In this document: positions 5,638-13,004 of the stretch, in pieces
Layout: each line of letters opens with the position of its first letter
Numbering within the stretch: the stretch's first letter is position 1
Assembly: GCF_013408305.1 (NCBI RefSeq)
Contig: NZ_JACBZS010000001.1
Span: 1,984,001 to 2,048,000, forward strand
Source: Naumannella cuiyingiana
Lineage (GTDB): Bacteria > Actinomycetota > Actinomycetes > Propionibacteriales > Propionibacteriaceae
DNA length: 64,000 nucleotides
Direction: 5' to 3'
Position numbers and translations under genes: made by a program
The notes under the pieces: model-generated
The model's input: the letters and a program-made list of their open reading frames with translations, nothing else
What the model was told of the DNA's origin: nothing
The model's database searches: none

Positions 5638-7179
5638 TCAGCCCCGGCGACGCCGGGTCAGCAGACCGGCTCCGGCGAGCGCGGCCAGCGCCGCGGCGCC
5701 GACGGCCAGCGGGCCGACCTGGCCACCGGTGTCAGCCAGCGGCGTGTTCGGGCTGCTCGGCGTGTCAGGACCGGTCGGCGTGTCGGGCGTGTCGCTCGGC
5801 GCCGGAGGCTGCGGCACACAGGGCGATTCCGACGGGCCGGGACCCTGGCTCGGCGACCCACTCGGGCCGGTCGGCGGGACGCACGGGGTCTCCGACGGGG
5901 TCGGGGTGGGGGTCTCCGACGGGGTCGGGGTGGGGGTCTCCGACGGCGTGGGGGTGGGGGTCTCCGACGGGGTCGGGGTCGGCGTCTCCGACGGGGTCGG
6001 GGTGGGGGTCTCCGACGGCGTGGGGGTGGGGGTCTCCGACGGGGTGGGGGTAGGCGTCTCCGACGGGGTCGGGGTCGGCGTCTCCGACGGGGTCGGGGTG
6101 GGGGTCTCCGACGGGGTCGGGGTGGGGGTCTCCGACGGGGTCGGGGTGGGGGTCTCCGACGGGGTCGGGGTCGGGGTCTCCGACGGGGTCGGCGTCGGCG
6201 GGAGGTCGCCGGAGCCGTCGCCGCCGGCGTCGACCTTGCGTACCCGCGTGGTGACCTCGACGTCATCGATGCCGGCGGTGTTGCTGAACTCGGTGCCGAC
6301 CGGGACGCCGGTCGAGTCCATCCGGTACTGGATCAGGTAGGTCGCACCGGCCAGTCCGGCGTTGGCGAAGGTCACCGTGAAGCTGTTGTCGGGGCCCTCG
6401 GTGAGGACGTAGTCGACGTTGGGCTCGAGGCTACGACCACCGGCCTCCCAGTCGGGACCGCTCTCGTTCCAGGCGCCTTCGGGGAACTCCGCGACGTTGA
6501 ACTCGTCGGGCAGGAACTTGAGCCGCGAGTCATACTGGTCGGTCACCCGGGTCCCGGCCTGGATGTAGCTGGCGGGCACGGCGATCCGGTACTCGACGAG
6601 GTCACCGTTCTCCAGGACCTGCCAGCCGGCCTTCTGCGGCTCGGTCGGTCGCGGCCAGGGCTCGCCGATCACACCGCCGCTGCCCGGCAGTTGGATGGTG
6701 ACCTCGTGATCACCGGACGTCCACACCGTCTCCGAACCGTCGTAGGCCTTGGTCGCCCGCGCGGTGAACCACAAGGTGCCCTCGACATTGTCGTGGCTCT
6801 CGACGAAATCGGTCAGGGTGCAGACGATCTCCTTCGGGGTCGCGGCGCAATTGCCGACCGTTTGCCCGTCCGCCGTCTTCAGCGGGAAATCCTTGGCGAA
6901 GAGTTGGATCTCCGGGCCGCCCTCGGGGATCGTCAAGCGGAAGGTGTCCCCGGCCTTGGCCGTGCTGTCCACCGCCCAGTTGGCTCGAACGTCGAAGTTC
7001 TCCCACTGGCGAAGTGGCCCGTCGAACCCGCTGGTCCGCTCGGTCGTCACCTGCGTGATGGCGCCGGAGATCTCGTCGGCCTTGGCGGTGCCGGGGCTCG
7101 TCAGGACGAGCGCGCCCAGCGCGAGCAGAGCTGTGGTGAGTGCGGCCAAAACAGCGCGCACGGAAGACCGTGTCTTCAT
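5638..7179 (-). CDS. LADTG-anchored surface protein with Pro/Thr repeat stalk
   Basis: 513 residues from the ATG at 7179, chosen because GGGGGA lies about 6 bases upstream and a signal peptide follows at once (KTRSSVR, hydrophobic 9-28, cleavage near TAKA-DE). Residues 40-350 look like one or two Ig-like adhesin modules. Next come about 13 copies of an eight-residue TPTPSETP repeat, a Cys-Pro-Ser-rich linker, and a C-terminal sorting signal: LADTGG, hydrophobic helix, TRRRRG. LAXTG is the motif recognised by class E sortases of high-GC Gram-positives. The repeat probably acts as a wall-spanning stalk. Confidence 0.88.
5888..6200. repeat. 24-base tandem repeat array inside the surface-protein gene
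   Basis: About 13 copies of a 24-base unit, each marked by GTCTCCGAC, encode the TPTPSETP stalk of the LADTG protein. Copies differ at a few third positions (CGGGGT, CGGCGT, CGTGGG and similar), so they are close but not identical. Length variation by slippage or recombination is likely. Confidence 0.9.
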
Positions 7180-7322
7180 CAATATCCCCCGATATCGAGT
7201 TTCTCGATTGTGATCCCACACCCGGCGTCAAAGCGCGGGGCGTGCAGACCCTCGGCACCATACACAAGTCAGTGGCGCTGCGCGAACGCATCTGGGGAAA
7301 AAGTGACCGCCCGCGTCGCCTG

Positions 7323-7379
7323 TCACCCGCGGCGTCGGCGCAGCAGCCCGGCTCCGGCGGCCGCGTCGCATGCATTCAC
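7323..7379 (-). pseudogene. remnant of a cell-wall sorting tail
   Basis: On the minus strand, 18 codons ending in a stop at 7323-7325 read ...AAAGAGLLRRRRG. This nearly duplicates the end of the neighbouring surface protein ([14 protein letters not shown]). No start-to-LPXTG portion remains: upstream lies the stop region of the biotin-carboxylase-like gene. I interpret it as the last piece of a deleted paralogue. Confidence 0.5.
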
Positions 7380-8608
7380 CGTGGGCCCGGCAACCCGAGA
7401 GTTCCGGGCCGCCCGTCGATCAGGATCGGGGTACGCCCGATGTCGGCGTCGGGCTCGCGCCCGGCCGGGAAGTCGGGCAGTGGCGCCGCGAACTCGGTCT
7501 CCAGCCAGCTCTCGTGCACCCGATACCGCTCGGATTCGGCGAAGGCGGGCTGGTCGAGCACGGCGCGATGGAACGACAACACGGTGGGTACGCCGGCCAC
7601 GTCGAACTCGCCGAGCGCGCGCCGGGCCCGGGCCAGTGCGGCCGGTCGATCCGGGCCCCAGACGGTCAGCGTGGCGAGCAGCGGGTCGAACCCGGGGACG
7701 GCCGACCCGGCCTCGATCCCGGAGTCGAGCCGGACGCCGGGCCCGCCGGGCGGCGCCACCCCCCGGACGACGCCGGCAGCGGGGAGGAACCCTCGTCCCG
7801 GGTCCTCGGCGCTGATCCGGAAGGTGATGGCGTGCCCGCGCGGTCGCTGCTCGGCCAGTGCGGGGTCGAGCCGCGCTCCGGAGCCCACCCGCAATCCGGC
7901 CACGACCAGATCGATGCCCGTGGTTTCCTCGGTCGCGGCGTGCGCCGGCGTCAGCCGGAAGCTGACGTCGAGCAGGGACGGCGTACCGTCCGCGTCCAGC
8001 CGGAACGCGACGCTCGCCCCGTTGATCAAACCCGGGCCGCTCAGGCCCCGGCCGACCGGGCCGCGGGCGGTGTACGCCGCTACGGCGGCGGCCCGCAGCT
8101 CGCGCTCCAGCTCCGCGCCGAGCGCGGGCGCCGGCGCCTCGTCGATCAGCGACCCGCCGCGGCGCTGCACCGAAGCGTCCCGGGTGCCGAGCGCGACGAC
8201 CGTGCCGTAGGGGTCGGCGAGCACGGGCACCTCGATCCGGCGCGACCGCGGCGATCCGCGGCCGGGCGTCGGTGCGCGGTCGACGAACTCCGGGGGGCGG
8301 CCGAGCCAGGTGAACCCCGCGGCCCGCACGGCGCGGGCGAAGTCCGCGCTGTCGGCCAGGCCGCCCGACCCCGGATGCACGGCGTCGGCGCGTGCGGCAC
8401 GTGCCGCGGCGATGATCCCGTCCCCGGACAGGTAGCTCCGGGCGGGGGTCGCGCCCGGCACGGCGTACGCCTCGTCGGCGAGCCGGACGTGCCGGGCGTC
8501 GAAGTCGGCATCGGCGTACACCGCGATCGAGGTGAGACCGGAGTCGGCGCAGGCGCGAGCGATCCGGGCCGCGATCGGGCCCCGGTCGGCGATCAGGACT
8601 CGTCGCAC
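7376..8608 (-). CDS. degenerate biotin carboxylase-like protein
   Basis: 410 residues, GTG start 4 bases after pxpBC. The N-terminal third follows acyl-CoA carboxylase alpha chains (LIADRGPIAARIARAC, VYADADFDARHVRLADEAYAV), but the sequence then jumps from the GLTWIGPP-like block (about 105) to the RHIEVQVL-like block. About 90 residues carrying the ATP-grasp glycine loop and its lysines are missing. The catalytic EVNxRxQVEHxVTE segment has become DVSFRLTPAHAATE. It stops before any biotin carrier domain. The frame is intact, so it is a paralogue with no predicted carboxylase activity. It may be structural or regulatory, or a gene in decay. Confidence 0.75.
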   Translation of the reverse strand: MRRVLIADRGPIAARIARACADSGLTSIAVYADADFDARHVRLADEAYAVPGATPARSYLSGDGIIAAARAARADAVHPGSGGLADSADFARAVRAAGFTWLGRPPEFVDRAPTPGRGSPRSRRIEVPVLADPYGTVVALGTRDASVQRRGGSLIDEAPAPALGAELERELRAAAVAAYTARGPVGRGLSGPGLINGASVAFRLDADGTPSLLDVSFRLTPAHAATEETTGIDLVVAGLRVGSGARLDPALAEQRPRGHAITFRISAEDPGRGFLPAAGVVRGVAPPGGPGVRLDSGIEAGSAVPGFDPLLATLTVWGPDRPAALARARRALGEFDVAGVPTVLSFHRAVLDQPAFAESERYRVHESWLETEFAAPLPDFPAGREPDADIGRTPILIDGRPGTLGLPGPR

Positions 8609-8612
8609 CCGA

Positions 8613-10184
8613 TCATCCTTCCCGGTCGGTCAGCCGGAACCGCAGCTCGGTCCCCGGTGGCGCCTGGCCGAGCGCGCCCAGCGCGGTGGAGTCGACGACC
8701 GCGATCACCGGGTATCCGCCGGTGATCGGGTGGTCGGCGAGGAACAGGATCGGCTCGCCCGACGGGGGCACCTGCAGCGATCCGGTGGCCACGCCCTCGC
8801 TCGGCAGCTCGCGTTGCTCGGTACGCACGAGCGGGCGTCCGCCGCCGAGCCGGAGCCCGACTCGGTCGGAGCGCTCGGTCACCAGCCACGGCTCGGTGAC
8901 CAGCCGCTGCACGGAATCGGCGTCGAACCAGTCGTCGCGCGGGCCGAGCATGATCGGCACCTCGAGCGATCCCGAGGGCTCGTCCGGCCACGGCACCGGG
9001 TCGCCGACCGCGCGGGCCGGGGGCACGATGTCTCGCAGCCCCAGTACCTGCCCGGCGCGCAGCGGAGGCGGGCCGATCCCGCCCAGGGTGTCGGTGGAAC
9101 GGCTGCCCAGCACGGCATCGACGGCGAATCCGCCGCGCGCGGCGAGCATTGCCCGGACACCGCCGGCCGGAACGCCCAGCGCCAGCTCGTCGCCGTCGTC
9201 CAGCGCCAATGGGCGTTGATCATCGACGACGACCTGTTCGCCGCCCGACCGGGTGATGATCACACCGACGCGGGCCCCGGTGACGGCGACGACGCAGCGA
9301 CCGCGCGCCCGCAACGTCAACGCGCCGTAGGGAATCTCCAGGATCGCCTCGTCGGGGACGTTCCCGACCAGTCCGTTCGCCAGTCGCATCGCCCGGATGT
9401 CCAACGCGCCGGAAACGGCGACGCCCATCGCCAGGTTGCCCGGCCGTCCCGCATCCTGCAGCGTGCTCTGCAACCCGGGGATGATCACCTCGAGGCCCCG
9501 GTCATGATCGGGTTCGGCGGCCGGGTCCGGAGCCGGGGCTGTCGTCGCGAGCTGCGCGACCGCCCGGAAGCGGACCCGGGTGCCGGGTGCGAGCAGCGCC
9601 GGCGGGTCGCGGTCGGCCTCCCACATGGTGGCCGCGGTACGCCCGATCAATTGCCAGCCGCCCGGGCTCTCCCGCGGGTAGACGCCGGAGAAACGGCCGG
9701 CGAGTCCGACCGAGCCGGCGGGGATGCGGGTCCGCGGCGAGGACCGGCGGGGGACGTCGAAGATCGGGTCTCCGCCGGCCAGGTAGGCGAATCCCGGCGC
9801 GAAACCGGCGAAGGCCGCCACCCATTCGCCGCCGGTGTGCCGGGCGATCAAGTCGTCACGGGTCAGGCCGAGCAGCCCGGCGACCTCGTCGAGATCCTCG
9901 CCGTCGTAGACGACATCGATCTCGATCGGCGGTCCGTCGCCGGCCGGCCGCGGCTCATCCGACAGTGCGGCCAGCTCGGTGATCAACTCGGCGCGAGTGA
10001 TCACCTCGGGACAGAAATCGATCATGATGGTCCGGGCCGCGGGCAGCGGCTCGCCCAGCCCCGGGATGGGATCGACGCGCTGGCGTTGCCGGAGGCTCGC
10101 GAGCAGCCCGAGGGTGTGTTCGAGGTCGACCAGCTCGACCAGTACGGCCCGGTCCCCGGCGGACAGGTGGCGCCGCTCGCTCAT
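8613..10184 (-). CDS. 5-oxoprolinase subunits PxpB-PxpC, fused (KipI-KipA type)
   Basis: 523 residues; its ATG overlaps the pxpA stop. Residues 1-215 are the PxpB/KipI half ([47 protein letters not shown]). Residues 225-523 are the PxpC/KipA half ([54 protein letters not shown]). With PxpA it forms the ATP-dependent 5-oxoprolinase that opens 5-oxo-L-proline to glutamate. Two-gene arrangements are more familiar from E. coli and Bacillus; fused forms also occur. Confidence 0.93.
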
Positions 10185-10945
10185 CGGCCGACGAACGGCC
10201 GCACCGAGATATCGTCCGTGAGCAGTCGATCGCGGACCGCGCGGGCCATCTCGACCGCGCCCGCGCTGTCGCCGTGCACGCAGATCGAATCGGCGCGCAG
10301 CCGCACCGGCGTACCCTCCACGGAGATCAACTCGCCCGCCGCGACCAGCCGCGCCATCCGCTCGGCCACCTCCGCCGGATCGTGCAACACCGCGTCGGGC
10401 TCGCGGCGCGAGACCAGCGTGCCGTCGGCGTGGTACGCACGGTCGGCGAAGGCCTCGCTCGCCGTCGTCAGTCCCGCCTCCTCGGCGATCCGCAGCACGA
10501 CGCTGCCGGCCAGCCCGAGCAGCACCAGCGAGTCGTCGGCCTCGCGGATCGCCGCGACCACGTCGCGCGCCTGTCGCTCGTCGACCGCGATGGTGTTGTA
10601 GAGCGCGCCGTGCGGTTTCACATAGCTCACCCGCCCGCCCGCCGCGCCGGCCAGCGCGGACAGCGCACCGATCTGGTAGATGATCTCCGGGACCAGGTCC
10701 TCGCTCGCCACATCCATTGCGCGGCGGCCGAAACCCGCCAGATCGCGATAGGCGACATGTGCGCCGATCGCGACGTCGTTGTCGACGGCGATCCGGCAGG
10801 TCCTCGCCATCACGCGCGGGTCGCCGGCATGGAAGCCGCAGGCGATGTTGGCGCTGGAGACGATGCCGAGGACGGCCTCGTCGTCGCCGAGGTTCCATCG
10901 GCCGAAGCCCTCGCCGATGTCGCTGTTCAGATCGATCGCGGTCAT
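10181..10945 (-). CDS. pxpA: 5-oxoprolinase subunit PxpA (LamB/YcsF family)
   Basis: 254 residues, full family length, ATG start overlapping the DUF1445 stop. The LamB/YcsF signature is clear: [14 protein letters not shown] at the N terminus, [47 protein letters not shown], and a C-terminal [11 protein letters not shown]. It supplies the catalytic part of 5-oxoprolinase together with the fused PxpBC encoded immediately downstream. Confidence 0.95.
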
Positions 10946-11760
10946 CGGACCTCCTGCTGCAGGGGCGGTTCGAGATAGGCGGAGTCGGGGGTGTCGGTGA
11001 TCAACATGTGACCGGGGGAGTGGGTGATCGCGAACGCCGGGCGGCTGGCCAGCACCGCCGCCTGCGGCGTCACCCCGCAGCCCCAGAACACCGGAACGTC
11101 CCCGGGCTCGAGGATCGGGGCATCGCCGAAATCGGGATGATCCAGGTCGGCGATGCCGAGCGCCCCCGGGTCGCCGACATGCATCGGGGCGCCGTGCACC
11201 GCCGGATAGCGGCCGCTGATCGCGATCGCGTCATCGACCCGATCGGCCGGGATGCCGCGCAGCGAAACCACCAGCGGGCCGTGGAACCGGCCGGCCGGTG
11301 TGCAGGGCACGGTCGTCGCATACATCGGCACGCTCCGGCCCGCGGTGATGTGTCGGACGGGTACGCCGGCCGCCAGCAGCGCGAACTCGAAGGTGAACGA
11401 GCAGCCGATCAGGAAAGCGACAAGATCATCGCGTTCCGACCACGCCGCGCTGGCGTCGCCCACCTCGGCCACCAGCTCGCCGTCACGCCAGATCCGATAG
11501 CCGGGCAGGTCGGTGCGCAGGTCGAGATCATCACCCGCCAGGGCGCTGGTCACGGCCCCGGGCGCGGTCTCGTCGAGCAGCGGGCACGGCCGGGGATTGG
11601 CCCGGGCGAAGGCGCGGAAGTCATCGGCCTGGTCCGCGGGCAGGGCGATCAGGTTGGCCTGGGCGTACCCGCGGGCGATGCCGGCGGTCGGTGCGACCAG
11701 GCCGGCGCGGTACGCCGACCGGGCGCGGGCCGGAGTGCTGTCGGCGTCGGGAATGATCAC
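10942..11760 (-). CDS. DUF1445 hydro-lyase / D-glutamate cyclase-like protein
   Basis: 272 residues from the GTG at 11760, which overlaps the permease stop. Family blocks include [45 protein letters not shown] and [12 protein letters not shown]. The mammalian relative DGLUCY converts D-glutamate to 5-oxo-D-proline, and the Bacillus homologue YcsI lies in the same PxpA neighbourhood. A role feeding 5-oxoproline, or handling its D form, to PxpABC is inferred from this context. Confidence 0.88.
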
Positions 11761-13004
11761 GATCCCGACACCATGGCGAAGATCGGGCCGATCGACACCG
11801 CGCCCATGTAGTAGCTCAGGGCCGTGGCTGCGGTGCCGACGACCAGCAGCCACCGGGGATAGCGGTAGTCGCCGAGCAGGCCGGGCCGGAACCAGCCGAT
11901 GATCATGAAGATGGTCAGGCCGATCGGCAGCACCAGGCCGTTGAATCCGCCGACGAAGACGAGGATCGCCGCGGGGGCCGCGCCCCAGAGCAGGAACAGC
12001 ACCAGCGAGACCGCGATGAAGCCGATCGTGATGAAGCTGCGGGTGCGCTGGGTGAGCCGGTCGCTGAATGCGGAGAAGAACGAGCTCGAGGTGTACGCGG
12101 CGCCGATCACCGACGAGATTGCCGCCGCCCAGAACACCACGCCGAAGACCTTGAAACCGACCTCGCCGGCGGCGGCCTGGAAGGCCTGTGCGCCGGGATT
12201 GCCCGAGGTGTCGAGCACGACGCCGCTGGCCACCACGCCGAGGATGGCCAGGAAGAGCACGTAGCGCATCACGCCGGTGACCAGGATGCCGTTGACGGCC
12301 GCCCGGTTCACCTCCTTGACGTGCTCGGGGCCGGTGGTGCCGGAGTCGAGCAGCTTGTGCGCGCCGGAGTAGGTGATGTAGCCGCCGACGGTGCCGCCGA
12401 CGATGGTGGTGATCGCGGCGAAGTTGAGCGTGTCCGGCAGCACCGTCTGGCGCAGGGCGTCGGCGACGGGTGGGCCCGAGACCACGGCGACATAGACCGT
12501 CAGCGCGATCATCACCAGCCCGAGCACGATCAGCACCCGATCGACCGCGGCCAACGCGCGCCGGGAGAGGAAGATCGCGATCGCGATGGCGGCGCTGATC
12601 GCACCGCCGATCTTGGGGTCGAGCCCGAACAGCACCTTCAGGCCCAGGCCTGCGCCGGCGATGTTGCCGATGTTGAAGGCCAGGCCGCCGATGATGATCA
12701 ACACGGCGAGCAGGTACCCCGACCCGGGGATCGCCCGGTTCGCCAGTTGCGGTGCGAACATCCCGGACACGGTGACCATTCGCCAGACGTTCAACTGGAT
12801 CGCGAAGTCGATCAGGATCGACAACAAGATGCCGAAGGCGAACGCTGCGCCGAGCTGGGCGGTGAAGGTGGCCGTCTGGGTGATGAAGCCGGGCCCGATG
12901 GCGCTGGTGGCCATCATGAAGATCGCCCCGATCAGCGAGATCCGGCGGGCCGATGCGAAGGACTTCGCCTGTTCGGCGGTGGATTCCTCACCAGTGGCTG
13001 CCAT
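11757..13004 (-). CDS. NRAMP-like permease (YcsG type)
   Basis: 415 residues with about eleven membrane helices, ATG start. Overall fold similarity is to NRAMP transporters, but the metal-binding DPGN of helix 1 is replaced by GPGFITQ and the helix-6 MPH motif by GAHKLLDSG. The Bacillus homologue YcsG sits beside PxpA and YcsI. I infer an organic substrate (5-oxoproline, glutamate or a related compound) rather than a divalent metal. It is the first gene of the five-gene oxoprolinase operon. Confidence 0.82.

Follow-up and report, generated by a model that had tools for sequence, protein, structure and literature searches.

A biotin carboxylase remnant lacking ATP lid and biotin carrier behind pxpBC of Naumannella cuiyingiana, probably kept as a noncatalytic protein

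The pxp locus and its shortened carboxylase gene

The window (the whole stretch of 64,000 nucleotides that was analysed) carries what looks like a complete 5-oxoprolinase locus, consisting of a regulator, a transporter, a cyclase, PxpA and a fused PxpB-PxpC protein. Behind it follows a shortened gene of the biotin carboxylase (BC) type, in the following called the remnant. The features of the locus are listed here from low to high coordinates.

7376..8608, minus strand: BC remnant of 410 amino acids with N- and C-terminal BC domains, without ATP lid and without biotin-carrier domain (BCCP); from frame, Pfam, alignment and model
7400..7429, minus strand: final pair of short strands ahead of the stop, approximately residues 394-403; from the alignment, strands in both models, pLDDT below 50
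7940..7969, minus strand: DVSFRLTPAH in place of the catalytic motif EVNTRLQVEH, residues 214-223; from the alignment
8015..8044, minus strand: in-frame insertion of 10 residues, residues 189-198, not in the eight orthologues; from the alignment
8240..8281, minus strand: lid-deletion junction, residues 110-123, where 83 residues are absent, including the glycine loop and two ATP lysines; from the alignment with eight orthologues
8616..8620, minus strand: AAGGA, ribosome-binding-like, 7 bases before the GTG and within the end of pxpBC; from reading the sequence
8613..10184, minus strand: pxpBC, fused PxpB-PxpC with CT_C_D and CT_A_B domains; from domain matches, the start presumably being an ATG overlapping with the stop codon of pxpA
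10181..10945, minus strand: pxpA, LamB/YcsF family, 5-oxoprolinase subunit; from profile matches
10942..11853, minus strand: D-glutamate cyclase family, YcsI-like; from profile matches
11757..13004, minus strand: Nramp-like transporter in YcsG/PxpT-like position; from profile matches, PxpT role after PMC13274462
13066..13809, plus strand, divergent: GntR/FCD regulator in PxpR-like position; from a profile match, PxpR after PMC13274462

The original prediction had described an open frame of 410 residues coupled to pxpBC, and both statements are borne out: the frame at 7376-8608 on the minus strand has 410 codons without an internal stop, and its GTG start at 8608 lies four bases after the pxpBC stop, which ends at 8613, with AAGGA seven bases ahead of it. 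The gene can not be called intact, as had been proposed, since the frame ends 89-100 residues before the ends of eight orthologues, whose additional part holds a biotin-carrier domain. With Pfam, the N- and C-terminal BC domains were found at residues 2-107 (Biotin_carb_N, PF00289, 4.5e-32) and 263-360 (Biotin_carb_C, PF02785, 7.6e-28), and CPSase_L_D2 matches with its second part only (profile positions 92-209 of 211). The TIGR00514 score of 269.9 bits does not reach the curated equivalog cut-off of 626.5. No Pfam match at E 0.01 was obtained for the overlapping frames 7370-8725 (plus strand), 7140-8210 (plus strand) and 6710-7375 (minus strand). The open frame alone is little evidence of a functional gene, because the window has a GC content of 70.8% and 15-69% of neutral simulations run to the same level of change stayed free of stops.

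Just downstream of the remnant, 5638-7221 on the minus strand encodes a protein in which a Big_8 (bacterial Ig) domain is combined with a stalk made of 12.8 copies of a 24-base repeat (5885-6192, PTPSET units) and with a LADTG end resembling a sorting signal.

Lost modules, orthologues and predicted fold

The alignment to eight orthologues agrees with the predicted loss of the glycine loop and its lysines; the 83 absent residues are spread over three gaps (21+55+7) with few residues remaining between them. A further deletion of one residue was also found, and the predicted motif changes to ADRGPIA, GSGGLAD and DVSFRLTPAH are all seen in the alignment. At the biotin-carrier end, there is neither a match to PF00364 nor an AMKM motif.

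Outside the deletion, 10 of 15 active-site columns, a list drawn up largely by hand, are lost, and the changed equivalents include Glu276, Glu288, Glu296, Lys238, His209 and Asn290. The metal ligands Glu276 and Glu288 and the bicarbonate base Glu296 correspond to Ala, Asp and Ala in the remnant. Kept are the equivalents of Gly83, Gln233, Arg292, Arg338 and Asp382, the last four being Gln148, Arg218, Arg264 and Asp308 of the remnant. Equivalents of Glu201, Gln233, Glu276, Glu288, Glu296, Arg338 and Asp382 are found in PMC11077971, which also gives the roles of all of these except Glu201. Judged from these losses, the remnant is almost certainly dead as a carboxylase.

The window, the genome G001 of the same genus and the genome G016 all show regulator, transporter, cyclase, PxpA, PxpBC and BC in one and the same succession, and by this gene order the remnant is the orthologue of the full-length BC-BCCP in its genus, which in G001 is the last gene of the operon and encodes 571 residues. 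We examined ten relatives in which a BC adjoins PxpBC (G001, G016, G103, G101, G071, G143, G058, G152, the near-copy G150 and G412), the first eight of which served as reference orthologues for the alignment and the column counts. All ten proteins are full-length (571-585 residues) and have the glycine loop, EVNTRLQVEH and the AMKM carrier motif; in the BC of G412, the N-terminal NRGEIA motif is present in variant form. The eight orthologues share with the remnant the position beside pxpBC, the N- and C-terminal BC domains and approximately 50-57% identity over shared columns, but they possess their own ATP lid, catalytic motif and carrier domain, all three of which are missing in the remnant.

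In some relatives, PxpB, PxpC and BC-BCCP are found in a single open frame of approximately 1120-1150 residues, namely at L153 1094-4465 (plus strand, G101), at L157 3320-6760 (minus strand, G152) and in its near-copy L158 (G150). These frames hold CT_C_D, CT_A_B, three BC domains and a carrier domain, though translation might also start internally.

When 35 PxpBC proteins were placed in a tree, the 10 loci that have a BC next to PxpBC, the remnant included, all fell into one supported clade of 17, of which the other seven members have no BC within 1.5 kb of PxpBC. Three of these seven were read over 10 kb and no BC was seen there. The BC-neighbour label needs five changes on this tree, at least four of them forced by well-supported branches, and this fits a history of one gain and approximately four losses.

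The search for other carboxylases without a lid covered 56 relatives and the own genome, where, among the matches listed, only that of the window itself starts before residue 36 and passes the junction; likewise, none of the matches listed for 394 genomes of the class does so. Of the matches listed, the 16 that begin at residues 36-56 and extend over the junction proved without exception to be full-length, and they possess both the glycine loop and the catalytic motif. Short open frames in G563 and G536, from the 394 genomes, are cut by contig ends and stand outside the lid comparison. Among 80 named loci, 78 align full-length in one piece, L053 does so in two adjoining pieces and L111 is cut by a contig end. 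The remnant is known from one genome. A literature search that covered few subscription papers returned, for BC or ATP-grasp pseudoenzymes, matches concerning tubulin ligase only.

AlphaFold modelling had been suggested together with the original prediction. For the single chain, the model with 69 aligned sequences, which may give the family fold whatever the sequence, is a BC core (pLDDT 86.3, pTM 0.86), whereas a model from the single sequence was not usable and was discarded (pLDDT 36.5). In the former, mean pLDDT is 63 at the junction (residues 111-120), 63 and 69 across the insertion (residues 181-200) and below 50 at residues 379-410.

The solved structure nearest to the remnant by Z is AccA3 of M. 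tuberculosis (5mlk_A, Z 52.7, rmsd 1.5 over 369 residues), with which 9yx1_A and 9yx2_A of M. smegmatis tie within Z 1; AccA3 is a BC-BCCP subunit with lid and carrier, whereas the remnant has neither. The lid-deleted structure 5ks8_A (Z 49.8) aligns with the remnant in a single stretch, residues 1-358. It stems from the alpha subunit of the pyruvate carboxylase of M. flagellatus, in which a four-residue linker had been put in place of the B sub-domain (residues 131-201 to Gly-Ser-Ser-Gly); according to PMC5059739, the altered protein was purified like the wild type, was inactive and still formed the holoenzyme. The deletion in the remnant is of the same kind, but it is natural and larger, and active-site residues outside of it are lost as well.

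PMC11077971 describes another BC-BCCP, whose tetramer is held by the hairpin preceding the carrier core and not by the core. The last two strands of the remnant would be the counterpart of the beta-hairpin that precedes the BCCP core, with the frame stopping just after it.

PxpBC and BC-BCCP together contain the same kinds of domains as urea carboxylase, which unites BC, carboxyltransferase (CT) and BCCP in one chain and whose CT is of the CT_C_D/CT_A_B type. However, CT comes first in the frames of G101 and G152, and BC is dead and separate in the window, whereas urea carboxylase, following PMC3199775, starts with BC and carries CT in the middle.

Constraint and neutral decay

Of the columns that are invariant in the eight orthologues and present in the remnant, 41 of 147 (27.9%) are changed, compared to 2-14% in the neighbouring proteins (PxpBC 3/130, cyclase 5/108, transporter 10/176, PxpA 4/29) and to 7 of 113 in the BC of G001, a count for which the copy of the window was part of the comparison set. 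The losses differ strongly between types of residues: Gly (0/22), Arg (0/13), Asp (0/10) and Trp (0/2) are always kept, while Glu (8/13), Gln (4/5), Asn (3/3) and Lys (2/2) are mostly lost.

Neutral simulations were stopped at 41 changed columns and run with equilibrium GC contents of 0.60-0.95 and three transition biases (15 settings with 1000 runs each). They lost on average 9-13 and at minimum 2 of the 47 Gly, Asp, Arg and Trp columns, against none in the remnant, a grouping that was made after the counts were seen. For this reason an omnibus test over all amino-acid types was performed, which is independent of chosen groups and gave P 0-0.0047 in eight settings. With 0, 8 or 12 of the changes placed in a functional phase, P was 0-0.0063 in nine settings; the rates of this phase were taken from the orthologues, where 63 of 1242 column comparisons are changed and none of them at the active site. 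Active-site losses amounted to 4-5 on average in neutral runs, and 10 or more occurred with P 0-0.004 or, with the final list of columns, 0.001-0.0065. The substitutions at the 41 columns are, moreover, milder than those of the simulations, with a mean BLOSUM62 score of -0.32 versus -0.82 to -0.91 (P 0.006-0.025). The contrast between Glu (8/13 lost) and Asp (0/10), which both have A at codon position 2, has P=0.003, or P=0.046 without the changes from Glu to Asp. Simple neutral decay therefore fits badly, since the active-site columns are mostly lost and Gly, Asp, Arg and Trp are all kept.

Two other tests gave null or weak results. Conserved columns outside the active-site list are lost at chance rate (29/111 versus a simulation mean of 31, P approximately 0.25); weaker conserved columns are lost in 2 of 21 cases and highly conserved ones no less often. 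The variable columns appear somewhat more constrained than neutral for most starting orthologues, with P from 0 to 0.37 depending on the one chosen, so that this test is weak. In the frame-aware alignment, no frameshift was needed at any of three penalties, even at one of 6, and the internal insertions and deletions are consequently multiples of three.

A dN/dS analysis, as recommended originally, was run with branch codon models for BC and PxpA in six taxa, yet it allows no decision, because synonymous sites have reached saturation even between members of the genus and branch lengths reached the bound of 15 neutral substitutions per codon. For BC, omega came out at 0.078 on the branch of the window and at 0.032 on the others, values that are unusable given this saturation. 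An omega of 1 over the whole window branch is rejected (2dlnL 42.1), but this is trivial, since the gene was functional along a part of that branch.

The composition of the remnant is shifted. Gly, Ala, Arg and Pro make up 49.7% of its residues versus 35-41% in the orthologues, and GC at codon position 2 is 60.3% versus 47-52%, a shift that resembles drift. Among the changes at codon positions 1 and 2 that alter the GC class, 35 of 46 go toward GC, which could be explained by neutral drift if the equilibrium is at least 75% GC. GC3 is 91.6%, a value that should have dropped by a few points under neutral drift, except with a neutral GC equilibrium of approximately 90%. In 394 compared columns, the remnant has no Lys, Asn or Met, which is extreme even among its orthologues.

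For PxpBC (8613-10184, minus strand, 1.7-fold) and PxpA (10181-10945, minus strand, 2.2-fold), G000 has a longer amino-acid branch than G001, which is not the case for the cyclase or the transporter; tests of unique changes do not bear this out in a consistent way. For PxpBC this test gave P=0.02 with one outgroup and 0.58 with the other. A decay of the whole operon was considered and rejected, as the neighbours are changed at few invariant columns and their unique-change ratios are not consistently above 1.

Explanations for the remnant and its possible role

We regard the remnant, with a probability of roughly 0.6, as a former BC-BCCP subunit of the pxp operon that is now a noncatalytic protein kept for its fold, and in the same measure as a pseudoenzyme derived from biotin carboxylase. 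The main competitor, which we consider a serious though less probable explanation at about half that weight, is slow gene loss: the carboxylase would have become dispensable, lid and carrier would have been deleted and the rest would be drifting in a frame that stays open because stops are rare at high GC. In line with this, the orthologues of the relatives are full-length, no second copy without a lid was seen among the matches listed and the 80 named loci, and seven members of the same clade, closely related in PxpBC, do without a BC neighbour. With approximately four losses of BC in this clade, an intermediate of loss is expected somewhere. C. glutamicum requires a regulator and the cluster pxpTABC for growth on 5-oxoproline, and no carboxylase is named with this cluster in the accessible text of PMC13274462. 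Moreover, a level of 0.10-0.14 neutral substitutions per site, which amounts to roughly 100-150 in all, would suffice for the observed losses at invariant columns, and the BC carries twice as many unique changes as that of the sister species (80 versus 40, P=0.0003). The drift-like composition and the chance-rate losses outside the active-site list point in the same direction. However, the neutral runs fail to reproduce the spread of losses over the amino-acid types and their enrichment at the active site. Furthermore, given the usual shares of insertions and deletions in bacteria, several frameshifts would be expected at such a number of substitutions and none was found.

Two other explanations fare much worse. 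A remodelled protein with a new role apart from the oxoprolinase, for instance with another ligand in the old cleft, would agree with the retention of Gln148, Arg218, Arg264 and Asp308, but the gene has stayed in the pxp operon, where it is preceded by a ribosome-binding-like sequence, and no sign of another partner was seen, and we therefore rate this role as improbable. It is harder still to believe in an enzyme that remains active with a lid or a carrier supplied from elsewhere in the genome. The equivalents of Glu276 (metal ligand), Glu296 (bicarbonate base) and Lys238 are gone, nothing was found in its favour, and profile searches of the genome with PF02786 and PF00364 revealed no isolated lid or carrier; the other matches to PF02786 (ATP-grasp) sit in open frames of 385-1962 residues and the six to PF00364 (carrier domain) in open frames of 510-1962.

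We favour retention for the fold over slow loss, as the losses look non-random. Both a retained pseudoenzyme and slow decay had been offered by the original prediction; it is the retained noncatalytic protein that is favoured, even though two further tests are null or weak. The prediction had also held that a unique copy under relaxed selection, next to full-length carboxylases in relatives, would mean simple decay. The relatives are indeed full-length and no second lid-less copy was seen in the genomes searched, but the pattern of losses appears non-random.

If the protein is kept, it probably serves the adjoining PxpBC as a partner in assembly. The remnant protein would be made and folded as a BC core and would bind PxpBC, as the intact BC may do in those relatives that have both in one open frame. 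In this way it might help to assemble or stabilise the 5-oxoprolinase, the chemistry of which would need no biotin in this organism. That the protein is a BC body stripped of its moving parts is a reading based on lid-deleted 5ks8, which assembles, and on the frame, which stops just past the putative position of the hairpin. More specifically, it is conceivable, albeit doubtful, that we are dealing with a natural BC without B-domain that acts as a structural subunit (scaffold) of the PxpABC 5-oxoprolinase, derived from a part of a urea-carboxylase-like enzyme by removal of the moving modules (ATP lid and biotin carrier), with the static core and the pre-carrier hairpin being kept.

A lineage without BC chemistry but apparently with the protein body separates two possible roles of a BC beside PxpB and PxpC, carboxylation and assembly, and the assembly role becomes testable through the dead protein. 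The remnant can thereby be seen as a natural counterpart of the engineered lid-deleted carboxylase.
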